Assembly: GCF_023806485.1 (NCBI RefSeq) | Contig: NZ_JAMSLR010000001.1 | Location: 248,001-312,000 of the forward strand | Source of the DNA: Thermalbibacter longus | GTDB lineage: Bacteria; Chloroflexota; Chloroflexia; Thermomicrobiales; Thermomicrobiaceae | DNA: 64,000 nt | Direction: 5' to 3' | Shown: piece by piece, positions 47,953-58,379 of the stretch | Layout: each line of letters begins with the position of its first letter | Position numbering within the stretch: position 1 is the first letter of the stretch | Translations under genes and position numbers: made by a program | The notes under the pieces: model-generated | What the model saw: only the letters and a program-made list of their open reading frames with translations | Databases searched by the model: none | What the model was told of the DNA's origin: nothing

Positions 47953-48963
47953 CTACCGCTTGCGGGCCAGCTCGAAGGTCGCCTGCGGGTCGTCGGCCGA
48001 GCGGTGGCCGGCGAAGACCATCACATAGCGGAGCAGGAAGCCACCGGCGAGCACCAGTAGCCCGACCAGCAAGCGCAGCGCCTGGGCCATCCCGCTGTGG
48101 CGCCCGCGGGCGAGCGCCTGGAGAAGGAGCGGCGCCACCACGCCGGCCCCCAGCACGCCGCGGAACGCCTGGCCAAGGCGCCCCTCGTCGAGCGGCCGGC
48201 CGATCACCGGGCCGCTGTTGGCGCGCAGGCCGAACAGGAGCGCCAGCTCTGCCAAGAGCGCCAGCCGGTCGAGCCGCTCCAGCCGCTCGAGTGCCTGGCT
48301 GCCGGCCTGCCGCGTCGCGCTCAGCAGGAGGAACAGTGCCGCGACCGCGTTCGAGAGCGCGGAGCTGAGGAAGAGCGGCCCCAGCAGCAGGAAGTTCTTC
48401 GTCCAGAGGGGAACCGCGGTGGCTGCCAGTAGCACGCCGGTGTAGCCGCTGAGGAAGAAGGCGGGCCCGCTGCCGAGCAGGCCGACGAGCCGATCCGGCA
48501 TGGCCCGGAGCAGCCGCGCCGGCCCGCGCCGGCCCAGGAGCCCATCCTGAGCCGCCTGGATCAGCGCGCTGAGGCCCGAGAACAGGCTGAAGGCGATCAG
48601 CCCCCAAACGCCGAGCGACATCGGCGAGCGCAGCTTGAGCACCCGGAGCATGTGGTGGAACCGCTCTGGCCGCCCCAGGTCGTAGATCAACAGCAGCGGG
48701 CCGGGGAGCACGGTCAAAAAAGAGAGGTAGCGACCGGCGCGGGCCACTGGGCGCATCTCCGGTCCGCCGAAGAGCCGGGCCAGCGTCGCGACTACGTAGC
48801 TCGCGCCGGAGATGCCACCCAGGAAGAAGTAGAGGACGATCGACCACTTCCAGTGAGGTTTGTGGATAGCCGGCAGACCGTAATAGCTATCGCGCGCCTC
48901 GTCCGCGGCCGAGCGCCCGGCCTGACGCCGCGTCTCCCATCGCCGCTCGTAGCCGATGCTCAT
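47953..48963 (-). CDS. NrfD-like membrane subunit of formate dehydrogenase
   Basis: This 336-residue membrane protein has eight or more hydrophobic helices and the NrfD/PsrC-family start (HWKWSIVLYFFLGGISGASYVVATLARLFG; LLIYDLGRPERFHHMLRVLKLRSPMSLGVWGL). Family members carry electrons between the iron-sulfur subunit and the quinone pool without bound haem. It is the third gene of the operon, 31 bases after the beta-subunit gene, and replaces the cytochrome b556 gamma subunit of the E. coli FdnGHI enzyme. Confidence 0.88.
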   Translation of the reverse strand: MSIGYERRWETRRQAGRSAADEARDSYYGLPAIHKPHWKWSIVLYFFLGGISGASYVVATLARLFGGPEMRPVARAGRYLSFLTVLPGPLLLIYDLGRPERFHHMLRVLKLRSPMSLGVWGLIAFSLFSGLSALIQAAQDGLLGRRGPARLLRAMPDRLVGLLGSGPAFFLSGYTGVLLAATAVPLWTKNFLLLGPLFLSSALSNAVAALFLLLSATRQAGSQALERLERLDRLALLAELALLFGLRANSGPVIGRPLDEGRLGQAFRGVLGAGVVAPLLLQALARGRHSGMAQALRLLVGLLVLAGGFLLRYVMVFAGHRSADDPQATFELARKR

Positions 48964-48994: not shown

Positions 48995-49843
48995 TCACCG
49001 CCGCCGCAGCGAGAGCAGCGCGGCGAGCCCCAGCCCGAGCGCGGCCGCCGCCGTGCTCAGGAAGGCCGGCAGGACCTTGCGCTGCGGCAGCTCCGGCTGG
49101 GCTGGCAGGTTGTAGACCTCCGGCGGCGCGGTGAGGATGAAGAAGGCGTTCAGCCCCTCGATCCCGCCGGTGCCGCCGACCTCCCGGTCGCCGTAGATGT
49201 AGGCCTCGGTCACGCCCTGCGTGTGCAGATCGGCCACACGCCGCTTGGCGCGCTCCATGAGCTGCTCCACCGGGCCGAACTGGATGGAGTCGGTCGGGCA
49301 GGCCTTGGCGCACGCCGGCTCCAGGCCGTCCTTGAGGCGATCGTAGCAGAGCGTGCACTTGTGCGCTTTGCCGTCGGTGAGGCTGAGCGCCGGCACCCCG
49401 AAGGGGCAGGCTGGCACGCAGTAGCCGCAGCCGTTGCAGATATCTTGCTGGATGACGACGGTGTCGAACTCCGTCCGGATAATGGCTCCGGTGGGGCAGG
49501 CTTCCAGGCAGCCGGCGTAGACGCAGTGCTTGCAGACATCGCTCATCATCAGCCAGTTGCTCTGAAAGGCCTTGAGCCGGGTGGGCCGGCGTCCCTCGCG
49601 GTCGCTGACCCGTTCGATGAAGGCGACGTGTCGCCACGTGGTGGCCCCCAGGTCGCCGGTGTTGTCGTAGCTGTAGCCGGTGAACCCGAAGTCATCCATC
49701 GGGAGCTGGTTCCACTGCTTGCAGGCCACCTCGCAGGCCTTGCAGCCGATGCACAGCGTCGTGTCGGTCAGGAAGCCGAGCGCGCCTGGCCGGGCTCCTG
49801 TCGTGCCGGCGCGGCCGTTGCCCTGGGATTCCCTCGCGCTCAT
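48995..49843 (-). CDS. Formate dehydrogenase beta subunit, four-cluster ferredoxin
   Basis: This 282-residue electron-transfer subunit has sixteen cysteines in ferredoxin arrangement: CIGCKACEVACKQW, CKHCVYAGCLEACPTGAI, CNGCGYCVPACPFG and CTLCYDRLKDGLEPACAKACP, enough for four [4Fe-4S] clusters. It ends with one membrane helix (VLPAFLSTAAAALGLGLAALLSLRRR) that would dock it to the membrane subunit. Its ATG overlaps the alpha-subunit stop in ATGA. It resembles FdnH/FdoH. Confidence 0.93.
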   Translation of the reverse strand: MSARESQGNGRAGTTGARPGALGFLTDTTLCIGCKACEVACKQWNQLPMDDFGFTGYSYDNTGDLGATTWRHVAFIERVSDREGRRPTRLKAFQSNWLMMSDVCKHCVYAGCLEACPTGAIIRTEFDTVVIQQDICNGCGYCVPACPFGVPALSLTDGKAHKCTLCYDRLKDGLEPACAKACPTDSIQFGPVEQLMERAKRRVADLHTQGVTEAYIYGDREVGGTGGIEGLNAFFILTAPPEVYNLPAQPELPQRKVLPAFLSTAAAALGLGLAALLSLRRR

Positions 49844-52800
49844 AGCGGTCGCTCCCCTTCCCGGGCGATCCGGCCCTTGCGCAGGTTGCAGGTGAACGAC
49901 TTGGCCTCGTGGATCCGAGAGTTCGGATCCTCGATCAGCGCCGACAGGTTGTTGGCGATCCCGCCCTGCGCGTATCCCTTGTAGCCGAAGTGCCAGGGCA
50001 TGCCGATCTGGTGCACCTTCCGGCCGTGGATAACGAGCGGCTGGATCCGATCGCTCACGAGCGCGCGGGCCTCCGCCTCGCCGCGCAGCGTCGAGACGAC
50101 TACCCAGTCGCCGTTGGCGATCCCCAGTTCGGCGGCCAGCTCCGGGCTGATCTCGACGAACCCCTCGGGCTGCAGCTCGGCCAGCCAGGGTACCGTGCGG
50201 CTCATGCCGCCGGCGGTGTGGTGCTCGGTCAGTCGGTACGTCGTGATGACGTACGGGAACCGGGGGTCGCCGATCTCGTGGTAAGGATTGTCGGGCCGCT
50301 CGAAGAGCGGGGCGACCGGGCTGCGCGGCGTCTTCGGATAGAGGAGGTTGCCGACCGGCGACTCCCAGGGCTCGTAGTGCGTCGGGAGCGGGCCGTCGAG
50401 CAGCCCGGAGGGCACGAAGAGGCGGCCGCGCCCGTCGGGCAGCATGACGAACGGCTTATCCCCGGCATGGGCATCCAGCCCTCTGGCTCCCTCCGGCGGC
50501 CGGTAGTCGGGTGGCTTGTTGGCAGGGAAGTCCGGCACGTCGTAGCCTGTCCAGCGGCCCTGCTCGGCGTCCCACCAGATCCACCGCTTTCGCTCGCTCC
50601 AGGGCCGGCCCTGCGGGTCAGCCGAGGCGCGGTTGTAGAGGATGCGCACGTTGTTCGGCCAGGAGAAGCCCCAGTCGAGCGCGGCTTTGTCGTCGCCCTT
50701 GCGGTTGCGGGCCCGGTTGTAGCCCTTCTCGGGCATGATGCCCGAGTAGATCCAGCAGCCGCAGGCTGTGGAGCCGTCGTCAGCGAGCTCGCGGAAGCTC
50801 TTGACCGGCTTGCCGTCGGCCACGGTAAAGCCGTTGATCTCCTCGAGCACCGCCTCGAGGTCCGGCTCGTCGTAACGGCCCTTCGTGGGGTAGTCCCAGG
50901 TCAGTGCCCTGATCTGGCGGCCTTTGGGCGTATCGTCGTCCTGGTAAAGCTCCTTGAGCCGCTTGCCGAGGTGGTAGAGGAACCAGGGCTCGGAGCGACA
51001 GTCGCCGGGTGGCTCGACCGCCTTGTCGTGCCACTGGACGAGCCGCTGGGTGTTGGTGAAGGAGCCTTCCTTCTCGCCGGGCAGCGCGGCCGGGAGGAAG
51101 AAGACCTCGGTCTTGATCTGCTCCGGCCGCAGCTCGCCGCGGCGCACCTCCGGCGAGTCGTACCAGAATGCCGCGGTCTCGATCTCATACGCGTCGCGCA
51201 CTACCAGCCAGTCGAGGTTGGCGAGCGCCTTGCGCACCAGCACGGCGTTCTGCCCGCCGACCGCCGGGTTCTGGCCTAGGCAGAACAGCCCCTTCATGAC
51301 CCCGTCGGCCATCATCGGAATCATCGCCTCGAAGGAGTAGTCGCCCGAGATCTTGGGCAGGAGGTCGTAGGCGAAGTCGTTCTCCGGGGTGGCGGCATCG
51401 CCGTACCAGGCCTTCAGCAGGCTGACCATGAAGCGCGGCATGTTGAACCACATCCCGGTCGGGGATTGCTCCGCCGCCAGGTACTCGCGGAGCGAGCGAT
51501 GCCCCGCCTGGGTGCTCGGCATCGGCAGGTAGCCGGGCAGCAGGTTGTAGAGCGTGGGGATGTCGGTGCTGCCCTGGATGGTTGCATGGCCGCGCAAAGC
51601 CAGGATGCCGCCGCCCGGTCGGCCGATATTGCCGAGCAGGAGCTGGAGCAGCGCGCAGCAACTGATGATCTGCGTGCCGATGGTGTGCTGCGTCCAGGCG
51701 ACCGCGTAGCAGAAGGCGCTCGTGCGGTCGCGGCCGGAGTTCTGGAGGAGCGTCTCGGCCACCGTGATCAAGAGGTCGCGTGGCACCCCGGAGATCTGCT
51801 CTACCAGCTCCGGCGTGTAGCGAGCGAAGTGGCGCTTGACGATCTGGAAGACGCATCTCGGGTGCTGCAGAGTCATATCGACGAGCGGCGGGGCGTGCGG
51901 CACGACCTGCGCGCTGTAGGGCTCGGCGGTTTGCCCGTGATCCTGTTCGGCTTCCTCGGCCTGGTGGCTTAGGGCGGAGCCGTAGTTGCCGGTAACAGCT
52001 TGCCCTTCCTCGCCGGTCTGGCCGGTGGCGTGGCGCTCGGGCTCTGATCCGGCCTGGGGTTGCTGGCGCTGGGCTGAGGTTGCAGGCTGGCTCGCGAACT
52101 GCCAGCTATCGGTGTTATAGCGCCGTCGCCCCGGGTCGTAGCCGGAGAAGAGTCCCTCGAGCTCTTCCGTGTCCTTGAACTCCTCGCCCACGATGAGCGG
52201 CGCGTTGGTGTAGTGGGTGACGTACTCCTTGAAGAAGGGGTCGCTGTTCCAGCGCTCGCTGTTGAGCACGTAGTTGATGATCCCCCCGAGCACTGCCAGA
52301 TCGGTCCCTGGCCGCAGCGGGACGTGGATGTCGGCCAGAGCCGAGGTGCGGGAGAATCGCGGGTCGACGTGGATGATGGTCGCTCCCCTGGTCTTGGCCT
52401 TGAGCACGAAGCGGAAGCCGACCGGGTGATTCTCGGCCATGTTGGAGCCCATGATCACGATGCAGTCGCTGTCAGCCAGGCTCTGCTGGGTCGTAGTCGC
52501 GCCGCCGCGACCGAGCCGAGCGCCCAGACCGGGCACCGTGCTGGAGTGTCATATCCGAGCCTGGTTCTCGACTGCCACGATGCCCAGCCCGGCCGTCCAG
52601 AGCTTCTTGATCAGGTAGTTCTCCTCGTTGTCGAGGGTCGCGCCGCCCAGGTGGCCGATGCCGAGCGTGCGGTTGACCGGCACCCCATGCTCGTCGGTTT
52701 CCTCGTAGGTAGCGTCGCGCGTCTGCTTGACGAGCTGGGCGATCCGCTCCATGACCCAGTCGAGCGAGCGCTCCTCCCAGTGGTCGCTGTAGGGAGCCCG

Positions 52801-53085
52801 GTATTTGACTCGTGTCTCGCGGAGCGGGCTCGTGAGCAGTCCGAAGGTCGCGGCGCCCTTGGGGCAGAGCGTGCCGCCGTTGATCGGGCTCTCGTAGTTG
52901 CCCTCGATGTCGATGATGCGCCCGTCTTTGGTGTAGATGAGCTGGGAGCAGCCTACCGCGCAGTACGGGCACACGCTCACCGCGACGTCGGCACCTCGTA
53001 TCCGGGCGTGTGCCTGCCTGGTGGCTTCGCTCACCGGGTTGGGTACCCGGCCGGCGTGGGTCTTGAGAAGTTGCACCACGCGCAT
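49840..53085 (-). CDS. Formate dehydrogenase alpha subunit, selenocysteine-containing
   Basis: A single 1081-residue protein is read from ATG 53085 through an in-frame TGA at 52551-52549, which must encode selenocysteine (residue 179). The context ENQARI-[Sec]-HSSTVPGLG matches the active site of FdnG-type enzymes. The [4Fe-4S] cluster cysteines are C39, C42, C46 and C74, and molybdopterin-binding segments follow (GRGGATTTQQSLADSDCIVIMGSNMAENHPVGF, SRTSALADIHVPLRPGTD, LEDNIGRPGG-like). There is no twin-arginine signal, so the enzyme may face the cytoplasm. Residues 332-403 are a Gln/Glu-rich insertion of low complexity. It is the first gene of the operon. Confidence 0.92.
52520..52551 (-). 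promoter_or_regulatory. Bacterial SECIS element at the UGA codon
   Basis: After the UGA at 52551-52549 an 18-base spacer leads to a loop GGUCU (52530-52526). The loop is closed by a six-pair stem, GUGCCC (52536-52531) with GGGCGC (52525-52520). The loop sequence and the 18-base distance are the same as in the E. coli fdhF element recognised by SelB. This is strong support for selenocysteine insertion. Confidence 0.85.
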
Positions 53086-53192: not shown

Positions 53193-53558
53193 TCAGCCAG
53201 TGGCTGGTGGGGGTGAGCCGGGCGAGCGTGTCCGGTAGAGTCGCACGTCTACCGGCATCAGAGTGAGCATCCCTTCTCGAACCATCTCTTCGAGCTGGGG
53301 CAAGATCGCCTCGATGCGCTCCGGCTGGTCGATGGCCTCGATCACGATCGGCAGGTCGGCAGCGATGTCCAGTAGATGAACGGCATGAATGCGATGGTGG
53401 GTGCCGTAGCCAGCTATCGCGCGGAACGCGGTTGCCCCGGCGATCCCGGAGTGCAAGAGGAACTCGAGCACCGCCATGTACAATGGCCGGTGATGCCACC
53501 GATCGGCTTCGCTGAGATAGATGCGTAGGCAGGTGGCACGGCCGTCACGCGTCTCCAT
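53193..53558 (-). CDS. DUF190 family protein
   Basis: The ATG at 53558 follows GAGAGGA and gives 121 residues. The sequence (LRIYLSEADRWHHRPLYMAVLEFLLHSGIAGATAFRAIAGYG, DLPIVIEAIDQPERIEAILPQLEEMV) is that of DUF190, a PII-like ferredoxin-fold family often encoded next to crcB. It lies 58 bases after the crcB gene on the same strand. It may sense or regulate the fluoride channel, but the function is not proven. Confidence 0.88.
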   Translation of the reverse strand: METRDGRATCLRIYLSEADRWHHRPLYMAVLEFLLHSGIAGATAFRAIAGYGTHHRIHAVHLLDIAADLPIVIEAIDQPERIEAILPQLEEMVREGMLTLMPVDVRLYRTRSPGSPPPATG

Positions 53559-53616
53559 CGGTCCTCTCGCCTTCAGGAATCCTCGACGCAGTATAGCACG
53601 CGCAGCAGGGGCCGGC

Positions 53617-54012
53617 TTACGGATGTCCTCGAAGCACCGCGGCCATGATCCGCACCAGTACCACGCCCAGCCATGCCGCTGCCAGGCCTGCGACGACCGA
53701 GCCAACCGTATTGAGCAAGAAGGGGAGAACGGCCTTGCTCTCCAGGAGCAGGAGGCTCTCGTACGAGAAGCTCGAGAAGGTTGTGAAGCCGCCGAGAAAG
53801 CCGACGGCGATGAGCAGCCGGGCTGCCGGTGAGAGATTGCCCGCCTCGAAGAGGCCGAGGATCACGCCGATCAGAAATGAGCCGGTGACGTTTATGATGA
53901 AGGTGCCGAGGGGGAAAGAGATGCCGACGTTTCGCTGGACAGAGGTCGAAGCCAGATAGCGCGCCACCGAGCCGGCAGCACCACCGATAGCCACCAAGAG
54001 CACGCCTGTCAC
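53617..54012 (-). CDS. crcB: Fluoride channel CrcB/FluC
   Basis: The GTG at 54012 has GAAGGAG six bases upstream and gives 131 residues. The family pattern is clear: VAIGGAAGSVARYLAS, PLGTFIINVTGSFLIGVILGLF, LLIAVGFLGGFTTFSSFSYESLLLL and a fourth helix. The GGFTTFSSF motif holds the pore phenylalanines and the central sodium site. As a dual-topology dimer it lets fluoride leave the cytoplasm. One crcB copy is present here, with DUF190 behind it. Confidence 0.93.
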   Translation of the reverse strand: MTGVLLVAIGGAAGSVARYLASTSVQRNVGISFPLGTFIINVTGSFLIGVILGLFEAGNLSPAARLLIAVGFLGGFTTFSSFSYESLLLLESKAVLPFLLNTVGSVVAGLAAAWLGVVLVRIMAAVLRGHP

Positions 54013-54065
54013 GCCCACTCCTTCTCGCGCCTTCTGCGTCTCACCCGAAGCGGCGCACACGAAGA

Positions 54066-54094
54066 GGCTCCTGCCCGCGCTCCGGGCGGGAGCC
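54066..54094 (-). terminator. Terminator-like hairpin in the crcB leader
   Basis: GGCTCC plus GCCCG (54094-54083) pair with CGGGC plus GGAGCC (54077-54066), giving 11 pairs and one mismatch around a five-base loop, 53 bases before the crcB start. It shares ATGGCTCC and a 15-base run ending GGGCAGGAGCC with the hairpin of the fluoride riboswitch at 58380. A possible promoter, TTGACG-N17-TACCCT, lies at 54190-54162. The aptamer half is not recognisable here. Confidence 0.5.
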
Positions 54095-54221
54095 ATGCGC
54101 GGACTTTCGGGTCGAACCGCTGCCGGTCCTGCCCGAACCGGCAACCCTGGTTGCCGGGCGAAGGGTAGCGATTGGAACGGTTGACGTCAACGCGGTCGAC
54201 CGATGGCGACTGCCAGGCCGG

Positions 54222-54740
54222 TTAGATCGCCAGATGGCCGCGCAGGATCAGGTAGCCCGGCAGCCAGGCGGTCAGGATGCCTTCGAGCAGGGTGACCGCG
54301 CCGACGAAGCTGGCGCTGAGCCGCCGTGGCACCAGGAGCAGGAAGTAGAAGAACCAGAGCACGGCCCAGGCTAACCAGTCGAGGCCTAGCCACCAGTCCC
54401 AGGCCTGCTGGGCGTTCATCAGGATTTCGACCCCGATCGGCACCGCGGTGATCGCTACGAACAGCGAGTACCATCCCAGACCTCGCCCATCGAGCTGAAA
54501 GATCCGGTTGATCGCCACCCACAGGTAGGTGAACGCGAACAGGAGCACCAGCGCGCCGAAGGCGATCTCTCCAGTGACCTCGGCGCCGGCACGGAACGCC
54601 GTGACGATGGCTGCCAGGAAGGCGATACCGCCAGCGAAGATGTTGATCACCGCAATCTCGCGGTCACCGATCCGGCCCATCAGCCAGAGGCCGTTGAGGG
54701 TGAGGACGGCGCCGACCCAGAGAAGCACGAGCCCGATCAT
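54222..54740 (-). CDS. AmiS/UreI family amide or urea channel
   Basis: This 172-residue protein has six hydrophobic helices. It opens with MIGLVLLWVGAVLTLNGLWLMGRI, continues with AVINIFAGGIAFLAAIVTAF and LLFAFTYLWVAINRIFQLDGRGLGWYSLFVAI, and ends with TAWLPGYLILRGHLAI, the layout of the AmiS/UreI channel family. GAGAGGGGG precedes the ATG. It lies 80 bases downstream of the formamidase gene on the same strand, which suggests uptake of formamide, acetamide or urea for that enzyme. Confidence 0.88.
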   Translation of the reverse strand: MIGLVLLWVGAVLTLNGLWLMGRIGDREIAVINIFAGGIAFLAAIVTAFRAGAEVTGEIAFGALVLLFAFTYLWVAINRIFQLDGRGLGWYSLFVAITAVPIGVEILMNAQQAWDWWLGLDWLAWAVLWFFYFLLLVPRRLSASFVGAVTLLEGILTAWLPGYLILRGHLAI

Positions 54741-54820
54741 GCCGGCCCCCTCTCACCGACGGGGCCAGGAGCCACGCCCCTGGCCCCGCGAGTAGACGAC
54801 GAGCTGGAGCAGAGACGATT

Positions 54821-56071
54821 TCATCCAGCGCGAGCGAGCTGCCCGGTGGTGGGCGCTGTCGGCGGCTCTTCCGGCATGATGTTGCGCTGGAAGATCTCCG
54901 TCGGCAGGTAGATAGTGCAGCAGGCATTCGGGATATCCACGATGCCGCTGATCCGCCCCTCGACCGGAGCCGAGCCCAGTATGATGTACGCCTGCTCGCC
55001 GGTGTAACCGAACTTCTTCAGGTACTCGATCGCGTTCAGGCAGGCCCGGCGATAGGCGACGTGGGCATCCAGGTAGTACTGTTTCCCCGCCTCGTCGACC
55101 GAAATCCCCTCGAACACCAGGTACGTGGTGTAGCGAGGCTCGAGCGGGCTGGTGCGGAAGATCGGGTTGGTGATGCCGTACTTGGCGACCCCACCCTTGA
55201 CCAGATCGACGTGCAAGTCGATCCAGCCAGCCATCTCGATGGCGCCACAGAAGCTGATCTCGCCGTCGCCTTGCGAGAAGTGCAGGTCGCCCATCGAGAG
55301 CTTGGCGCCTGGGACGTAGACCGGGAAGTAGCAACGCGAGCCGCGGGTCAGGTTCTTGATGTCGCAGTTACCACCGTGCTCGCGCGGTGGGATCGTCCGC
55401 GCGGCCTCCTTCGCCGCGCGCTCGAACTCGGGCCCCTTCAGGGTGCCGAGCACCGCGTTGGTCTCGAGCGGCGGGAGGGCCAGCGGGGGCACCCGGTTCG
55501 GGTTGGTCGAGATGAGCTCGGCCTCCCGCCGGTTCCATTCCGCCAGGAGCTCGGCGGAGGGCGCGCACCCGATCAGCCCCGGATGGGGGATGCCGACGTA
55601 ACGGACATCGGGGATGTGGCGGGACTGCGCATACGTTGTCCCCTGAAGGTCCCAGATCGCCTTATGGGGATCGGGGTAGTGGTCGGTTAGAAAACCGCCG
55701 CCGTTGACCTTGGCGAAGATGCCAGTGTAGCCCCACTCGGTGGTGGGAGAGTTGTGGGGAGTCTTCGTCCCGTTGGGGAACGGTCCCAGGTCGAGAATGT
55801 CGACGATGAGAAGGTCGCCGGGTTCGGCACCTTCGACGGCGATGGGGCCACTCAAGACGTGGTTGCGGGTCAGGTCGACGTCCCGGACGTCGTTTGCGCT
55901 GTCGTCGTTGCGGATCTGCCCGTCAGTCCACTCCTGGCACTCGATCCGGAAGACCGCACCCGGTTTCACCGAGGCGACCGGCGGGATGTCGGGGTGCCAG
56001 CGGTTGTGACCAGGAACACTTTGCTCCGGCCAGGGTTTGGTGAGGTCGACCTCGAACAAGATGTCAGGCAT
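54821..56071 (-). CDS. fmdA: Formamidase/acetamidase
   Basis: This 416-residue cytosolic enzyme is of the FmdA_AmdA family, with GGGAGGG before the ATG. Typical segments are NRWHPDIPPVASVKPGAVFRIECQEWTDGQI, GPIAVEGAEPGDLLIVDILDLGP, HPGLIGCAPS, REHGGNCDIKNLTRGSRCYFPVYVPGAKLSMGDLHFSQGDGEISFCGAIEMAG and DIPNACCTIYLPTEIF. It hydrolyses formamide to formate and ammonia. The formate dehydrogenase operon lies less than 2 kb away, which suggests a short route from formamide to CO2 and reducing power. Confidence 0.92.
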   Translation of the reverse strand: MPDILFEVDLTKPWPEQSVPGHNRWHPDIPPVASVKPGAVFRIECQEWTDGQIRNDDSANDVRDVDLTRNHVLSGPIAVEGAEPGDLLIVDILDLGPFPNGTKTPHNSPTTEWGYTGIFAKVNGGGFLTDHYPDPHKAIWDLQGTTYAQSRHIPDVRYVGIPHPGLIGCAPSAELLAEWNRREAELISTNPNRVPPLALPPLETNAVLGTLKGPEFERAAKEAARTIPPREHGGNCDIKNLTRGSRCYFPVYVPGAKLSMGDLHFSQGDGEISFCGAIEMAGWIDLHVDLVKGGVAKYGITNPIFRTSPLEPRYTTYLVFEGISVDEAGKQYYLDAHVAYRRACLNAIEYLKKFGYTGEQAYIILGSAPVEGRISGIVDIPNACCTIYLPTEIFQRNIMPEEPPTAPTTGQLARAG

Positions 56072-57115: not shown

Positions 57116-58318
57116 CTAGTCCTCTCCTTCACTCAGTGACGACGACTCCATCGCCGGCAGGGTAGAAACGCTGGCCTGACCTGGCTCGCGCGCGCCGGCC
57201 GGAGCGGTTTCTGGCAGGAACCAGGTCTGCGCGATCAGCGTCGGGACAACGGCTGAGCCGATGACGGCGGTGACCAGCACGGTGTACTGCGACTGGTCGA
57301 TGAGCCCGTTGGTGAGACCGAAGAGCGCCGAGATGGTTCCGAAGGTCAGGCCGGTGGACATCAGCAGCGTCGTGTACGTCCCGCTACGTCGCTCCATGGC
57401 GAAGGCCCGCGTCAGCGGCCAGACTCCGACCAACTTGGCGACCATCTTCACCAGCAGGAAGGCACCGATGAGCGCGGCTCTGGAGATGATGGCCGGGATC
57501 GAGACGAAGAGACCGGCCTTGATGAAGTAGAACGGCGTCAGCGCCCCGAAAGCGATCGTCCGCAGCCGGAGCATCAGTGCCCGGCTCTCCTGGAAGACGC
57601 CGGCCACGACCAGGCCGATCAGGTAGGACGGCAGCACCGCCTCGCTCCCGGCGCGCGTCGCCAGCCAGCCGAGCGCGAACAGCACGAGCAGCAGGAACTT
57701 CACCTCCGGCTCGGAGACCCGGCCTCCCCAGGTCTGGATGACCCAGCGCGTGAGCCGGGGAAGCGGCCAGAGCACCAGCGCGGTGACCGCGGCGAACACC
57801 ACGAGCCAGCGGTCGAAGCCGGCGAAGATCAAGCCGAGCGCCAGCACCGTGCCCAGGTCGTTGATGAAGCAGGCGGCGAGGATCAGCTTCCCCAGCTCCG
57901 TCTGGTTCAGGCCGGTCTCGACCATCACCGCGTAGACGACGGCGACCGAGGTGGTGGAGAGCGCGATGCCGGCGATCCAGGCAGAGTCGGGCGCCCAGCC
58001 GGCGACGAAGCGCGCGAAGGCCGCCGCGCCGAGGAAGGGAAAGACGAAGCCGGCGATGCCGATCGCCAGGCTCGGCTTCAAGTGCCGGCGCAGTGATTCC
58101 GGATCGATCTCGGCGCCGGCTAGGAACGTCAGCACCACCGCGCCGATCCCGGCGAGGGCGTTGATCCACTCGCTCACCTCGAGGTGCAGGACGTTCCCGC
58201 CGAAGACGCCGACGGCGATCTCGACCAGCGCAACCGAGATCCCGAGTCGGATCGAGAACAGGCTCGCGACGAGCGCGAGCGCCATCCAAATCGCGGCCGT
58301 CCCCCAGACGTGCTCCAT
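57116..58318 (-). CDS. Cation/proton antiporter (CPA2, KefB/NapA-like)
   Basis: The ATG at 58318 has GGAGG eight bases upstream; the 400-residue protein has about twelve helices. GVFGGNVLHLEVSEWINALAGIGAVVLTFLAGAEID and ALSTTSVAVVYAVMVETGLNQTELGKLILAACFINDLGTVLALG are CPA2 signatures, with ND as the ion-binding pair. The C-terminal cytosolic tail is short and has no RCK domain. It probably exchanges Na+ or K+ for protons, or helps to keep pH balance during fluoride stress. The leader contains a fluoride riboswitch. Confidence 0.9.
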   Translation of the reverse strand: MEHVWGTAAIWMALALVASLFSIRLGISVALVEIAVGVFGGNVLHLEVSEWINALAGIGAVVLTFLAGAEIDPESLRRHLKPSLAIGIAGFVFPFLGAAAFARFVAGWAPDSAWIAGIALSTTSVAVVYAVMVETGLNQTELGKLILAACFINDLGTVLALGLIFAGFDRWLVVFAAVTALVLWPLPRLTRWVIQTWGGRVSEPEVKFLLLVLFALGWLATRAGSEAVLPSYLIGLVVAGVFQESRALMLRLRTIAFGALTPFYFIKAGLFVSIPAIISRAALIGAFLLVKMVAKLVGVWPLTRAFAMERRSGTYTTLLMSTGLTFGTISALFGLTNGLIDQSQYTVLVTAVIGSAVVPTLIAQTWFLPETAPAGAREPGQASVSTLPAMESSSLSEGED

Positions 58319-58379
58319 CTCTTCGCCTCCCACCGGCTCCGATGCGAATCCGCCGCTCGGCGACGGGCAGGAAAGCGAA

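Follow-up and report, generated by a model that had tools for sequence, protein, structure and literature searches.

The catalytic subunit of formate dehydrogenase, FdhA, has been described as the most widespread selenoprotein of bacteria (PMC13188914), and a survey published in 2006 listed the Chloroflexi with three selenoproteins belonging to three families (PMC1794560). Among the enzymes with solved structures, the tungsten-containing formate dehydrogenase from Desulfovibrio (PDB accession code 1h0h; best score) and FdnG from E. coli (1kqf) are closest to the protein studied here. The Desulfovibrio enzyme originates from another bacterial group, is soluble, and possesses no membrane-embedded NrfD subunit. 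The enzyme family, the operon and its occurrence in the group to which Thermalbibacter longus belongs are already known and annotated. Our search of the open-access literature for reports on selenocysteine formate dehydrogenases specifically in the Thermomicrobia found none. The T. longus genes considered here are part of a stretch of DNA of 64 kb, referred to below as the window, and comprise the following features:

49840..53085, minus strand: fdhA, predicted catalytic subunit of a selenocysteine formate dehydrogenase, 1081 amino acids with selenocysteine at residue 179 (open frame, profiles, domains)
52549..52551, minus strand: TGA codon decoded as selenocysteine (residue 179), which is predicted to bind the metal; the next residue is a conserved His (alignment with 1kqf and 1h0h)
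48995..49843, minus strand: fdhB, iron-sulfur beta subunit with a hydrophobic C-terminal tail (Fer4_11 and FDH-beta matches)
47953..48963, minus strand: nrfD-type integral membrane subunit, likely quinone-reactive (PF03916 NrfD, 4.8e-33)

Translation of the minus strand from 53085 to 49840 yields 1082 positions that contain only two stop codons, both of them TGA, one at residue 179 and the other at the end of the gene. A naive listing of open reading frames in all six frames consequently breaks fdhA into two pieces (52549-53085, 178 amino acids; 49840-52536, 898 amino acids), just as the sequence-only reading had claimed when it described an alpha subunit split by an in-frame TGA at 52551-52549. 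The flanking residues that it gave (ENQARI before and HSSTVPGLG after the TGA) are exact, and the two parts indeed share one frame without a further internal stop. The halves on either side of the TGA look like a single coding frame because their third-position G+C contents are nearly the same (88% on the 5' side, 90% on the 3' side). When read through, the FdhA protein matches the formate dehydrogenase profile NF041513 (formate_DH_Act) over residues 10-1076 with 1533.7 bits against a curated cut-off of 1400 bits, and the profile of the formate dehydrogenase-N alpha subunit (TIGR01553) with 992.2 bits against a curated cut-off of 814.2 bits; it carries the Molybdop_Fe4S4, Molybdopterin and Molydop_binding domains. 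The comparison with selenocysteine- and cysteine-containing formate dehydrogenases that had been proposed as a check places residue 179 on the selenocysteine (X) of both 1kqf and 1h0h. The codon found at this site in our first set of 83 homologues is TGA in 81 cases, and a Cys codon in the remaining two (TGC in one, TGT in the other). The mid-gene TGA codon of fdhA is almost certainly decoded as selenocysteine, as it is in many known bacteria.

Such decoding in bacteria involves an RNA hairpin positioned shortly behind the UGA codon, and a candidate for this element is present in fdhA:

52519..52537, minus strand: bacterial SECIS hairpin GGTGCCC-GGTCT-GGGCGCT with its loop at 52530-52526 (covariation, frozen loop codons)

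The hairpin lies 14-32 bases downstream of the first TGA base, exposes a GGTCT loop, and is foldable in the TGA-bearing homologues. Folding of single sequences was no better than that of shuffles (z between -0.3 and -1.0), and the same was true of the E. coli fdhF SECIS element, run alongside with an approximate sequence (z 0.2). We therefore relied on alignment-based covariation. Across 29 distinct Chloroflexota-type homologues, the stem positions pair in 96.6% of cells versus 85.1% after shuffling, the covariation score is 0.339 versus 0.140, and double changes occur in 18 cells versus 5.3; this signal is lost when the stem partner is slid. The outer stem pair alternates between GC, UA, CG and AU; at the column pair 18/30, GC, CG, UA and AU all occur. 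Furthermore, the loop is frozen at the level of its codons: Gly is encoded by GGT in all 93 distinct sequences that possess a Gly at this place, and the Leu that follows it by CTG in 94 of 95, whereas the conserved codons in the neighborhood of the hairpin have a median synonymous entropy of 1.67 bits. GGT is a minor codon in fdhA itself (3 of its 99 Gly codons). The GGTCT loop is absent from all seven homologues with Cys that we examined (L040, L100, plasmid-borne L168, L171, L173, L174 and L175), and four TGA-bearing homologues from Actinomycetota and Proteobacteria (L169, L170, L172, L176) have either GGTCT or the variants AGTCT and AGTTT.

The genes for the selenocysteine machinery had been predicted to reside elsewhere in the genome, and all four were found above their respective cut-offs in the assembly of the host genome, which spans 3.63 Mb and is 99.9% complete. 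These are selA (531 bits; cut-off 267.9), selB (322.7 bits, or 346.2 bits when its C-terminal piece is included; cut-off 242.25), selD (376.3 bits; cut-off 125), and selC, encoding tRNA-Sec (75.3 bits; cut-off 47), which ARAGORN also called as a SeC tRNA with the anticodon TCA. Hence, the genome contains both selB and a tRNA-Sec, whose absence had been named in advance as speaking against selenocysteine. The selD gene (locus L024) itself carries an in-frame TGA around position 2403 on the minus strand, in the context SCAG-TGA-AGKLG. This is presumably the position of the active-site Cys or Sec of other SelD proteins and, because of this TGA at the active site, the host SelD is likely to be a selenoprotein as well. 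A second formate dehydrogenase gene of T. longus (G000:C80:63909-66980; locus L012) encodes a paralogue that is 59% identical to FdhA and has a TGA at the same site; its operon comprises a Tat signal (LSRRRFLK), fdhB, nrfD and an FdhE-like gene, the latter recognized by eye.

The two separate ORFs of the naive annotation could also be taken to mean that a nonsense mutation or a sequencing error has produced the TGA and that fdhA is a pseudogene. The homologues refute this: 81 of 83, relatives at 90-95% identity among them, have a TGA at the equivalent site, which excludes a chance origin; in addition, the coding composition is kept in both halves, the SECIS element is conserved, and the host possesses the complete sel machinery. 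We therefore attach next to no probability to a pseudogene. Nor do we give more credit to the idea that two proteins are made on purpose, for which a GTG codon at 52536 would offer a start for re-initiation downstream of the TGA. The selenocysteine site lies between the two halves and would be lost in such a split enzyme, the position of the TGA and the SECIS element are conserved, and the homologues with Cys are encoded by one uninterrupted frame.

Reading of the UGA by a near-cognate tRNA (Trp or Cys), without any selenocysteine, is likewise extremely improbable in a cell with dedicated selA, selB, selC and selD genes, for a message that carries a SECIS element, and at a residue that is selenocysteine in the homologous enzymes of solved structure. 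Decoding of the TGA as selenocysteine by the specialized machinery is thus the reading that we adopt.

The sequence-only reading had remarked that selenoproteins appear uncommon in this bacterial group, a statement that is contradicted by the genomes. A selB gene scores above the cut-off in 18 of the 21 genomes of the host family, the other three being incomplete (54-81%), and TGA-bearing formate dehydrogenases are found in most of these 21 genomes. Among 400 Chloroflexota genomes, 162 contain matches to the pattern of the selenocysteine site. The closest relatives of FdhA are those from Bacterium HR26 (95%) and from metagenome-assembled genomes of Thermomicrobiaceae (93% and 90%), and the TGA-bearing homologues span the Chloroflexota, Bacillota, Actinomycetota and Proteobacteria. 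In RefSeq, a homologue from Thermomicrobium roseum (WP_143714751.1) is annotated as one coding sequence that spans the in-frame TGA. Given this distribution of selB and of the TGA, the existing annotation, and the published listings cited at the outset, the remark on rarity was wrong, and fdhA is an unremarkable representative of a family that is already known.

One feature of the decoding site may merit separate consideration:

52552..52554, minus strand: ATA codon immediately 5' of the selenocysteine codon, unusually conserved (homologue codon counts)

When distinct sequences are counted and their shared ancestry is ignored, the codon preceding the TGA is ATA in 40 of 44 homologues of the Chloroflexota type and in 47 of 51 of the Bacillota type. 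Of the remaining Ile codons in the same stretch, about 3% in the former set and 10% in the latter are ATA. Within seven other genes of the window, ATA accounts for one of 133 Ile codons. The matches listed in our scan of the Chloroflexota that have Ile before the selenocysteine codon use ATA about 77 times versus 11 times for ATC or ATT, as counted by hand. Ile is encoded by ATC or ATT in front of the Cys of two homologues (L040, L100), and at the same place in five putative Cys-type pattern matches from the Chloroflexota. A simpler rule, according to which the base before the TGA must be A, fails, as matches with Val before the selenocysteine codon mostly use GTT or GTC. No open-access paper on a rule for the upstream codon in formate dehydrogenase came up in our literature search, which found a general review only. 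That the codon preceding the selenocysteine UGA is under selection of its own is a tentative suggestion that we ourselves regard as rather doubtful; SelB might gain an advantage over release factor 2 from a P-site tRNA that decodes AUA, or from the local RNA context. If true, the observation could provide a simple and testable rule for the efficiency of selenocysteine recoding.

With very high probability, as judged from the gene sequences, fdhA, fdhB and nrfD encode a membrane-associated Mo- or W-containing formate dehydrogenase with selenocysteine as the metal-ligating residue and SelB/SECIS-dependent decoding of the UGA codon. The start codon of fdhB overlaps the stop codon of fdhA (ATGA). 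From the codon, the SECIS element, the sel genes and the subunits, all of which can be read directly from the DNA, we infer the following course of events. SelB, loaded with Sec-tRNA-Sec (the selC product), would bind the hairpin, which starts 14 bases past the first UGA base, and deliver selenocysteine at this codon, so that the ribosome would make a single FdhA protein of 1081 residues. As established for these enzyme families, the selenocysteine would serve as a ligand to the Mo or W atom in the bis-MGD cofactor; at this Sec/metal site, formate would presumably be oxidized to CO2, and the electrons would pass via the Fe-S clusters of the alpha and beta subunits to the NrfD subunit and from there, again by analogy with the families, into the quinone pool. 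The N-terminus of FdhA (MRVVQLLKTHAGRVPNPVSEATRQ) has no twin-arginine motif and thus no Tat signal, and the SRRRFLK motif is found at the N-termini of the C80 paralogue and of a plasmid-encoded copy from T. roseum. The catalytic subunit is therefore probably located on the cytoplasmic side, unlike that of the Tat-bearing paralogue, with the missing Tat motif as the sole basis for this placement.

Upstream of fdhA and on the same strand lie genes for an AmiS/UreI amide transporter and an acetamidase/formamidase (54222-56071), which are also found in some relatives. Because these genes adjoin the fdh operon, formamide could conceivably serve as a source of formate. The interval between the amide transporter gene and fdhA contains genes for a DUF190 protein and the fluoride channel CrcB (53193-54144). 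The corresponding loci of three close relatives (L028, L029, L030) yielded no match to these genes, which suggests an insertion or a loss. A fluoride riboswitch (RF01734; 44 bits; 58469-58394, minus strand), lying a short distance 5' of a gene of the sodium/hydrogen exchanger type (57116-58333), was the sole match in an Rfam search of the 64-kb window.

The selenocysteine finding is real but ordinary, since decoding of TGA in this manner is known in many bacteria and the genome holds all the machinery needed for it. It provides a selenoprotein that is split by simple gene callers and was spotted correctly by a tool-free reading of the sequence, a clean additional example of selenocysteine-dependent formate oxidation in the Thermomicrobiaceae, and a single genome that combines two selenocysteine formate dehydrogenases, one apparently cytoplasmic and one exported, with a SelD protein that likely contains selenocysteine as well.

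The T. longus enzyme is not strictly of the FdnG type. FdhA resembles the E. coli FdnGHI enzyme (1kqf) in its domain layout, the Cys motif for the 4Fe-4S cluster, the Sec-His pair of the active site, and the presence of alpha and beta subunits. It differs from it by the lack of a Tat signal, and the operon has no gene for a cytochrome b gamma subunit (FdnI), in whose place the third gene encodes an NrfD-type membrane protein (PF03916). FdhA also carries, in comparison with FdnG, an additional low-complexity insert rich in Gln and Glu (residues ~335-400; roughly 52080-51890), a segment that is poorly conserved among its relatives. The likeness to the Desulfovibrio tungsten enzyme (1h0h) lies in the alignment of its selenocysteine with residue 179. 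The gene order corresponds to that of T. roseum WP_143714751.1, whose gene is likewise followed by those for a 4Fe-4S protein and NrfD. The plasmid-encoded T. roseum copy (55% identity) possesses the Tat signal that is absent from the FdhA protein of T. longus.
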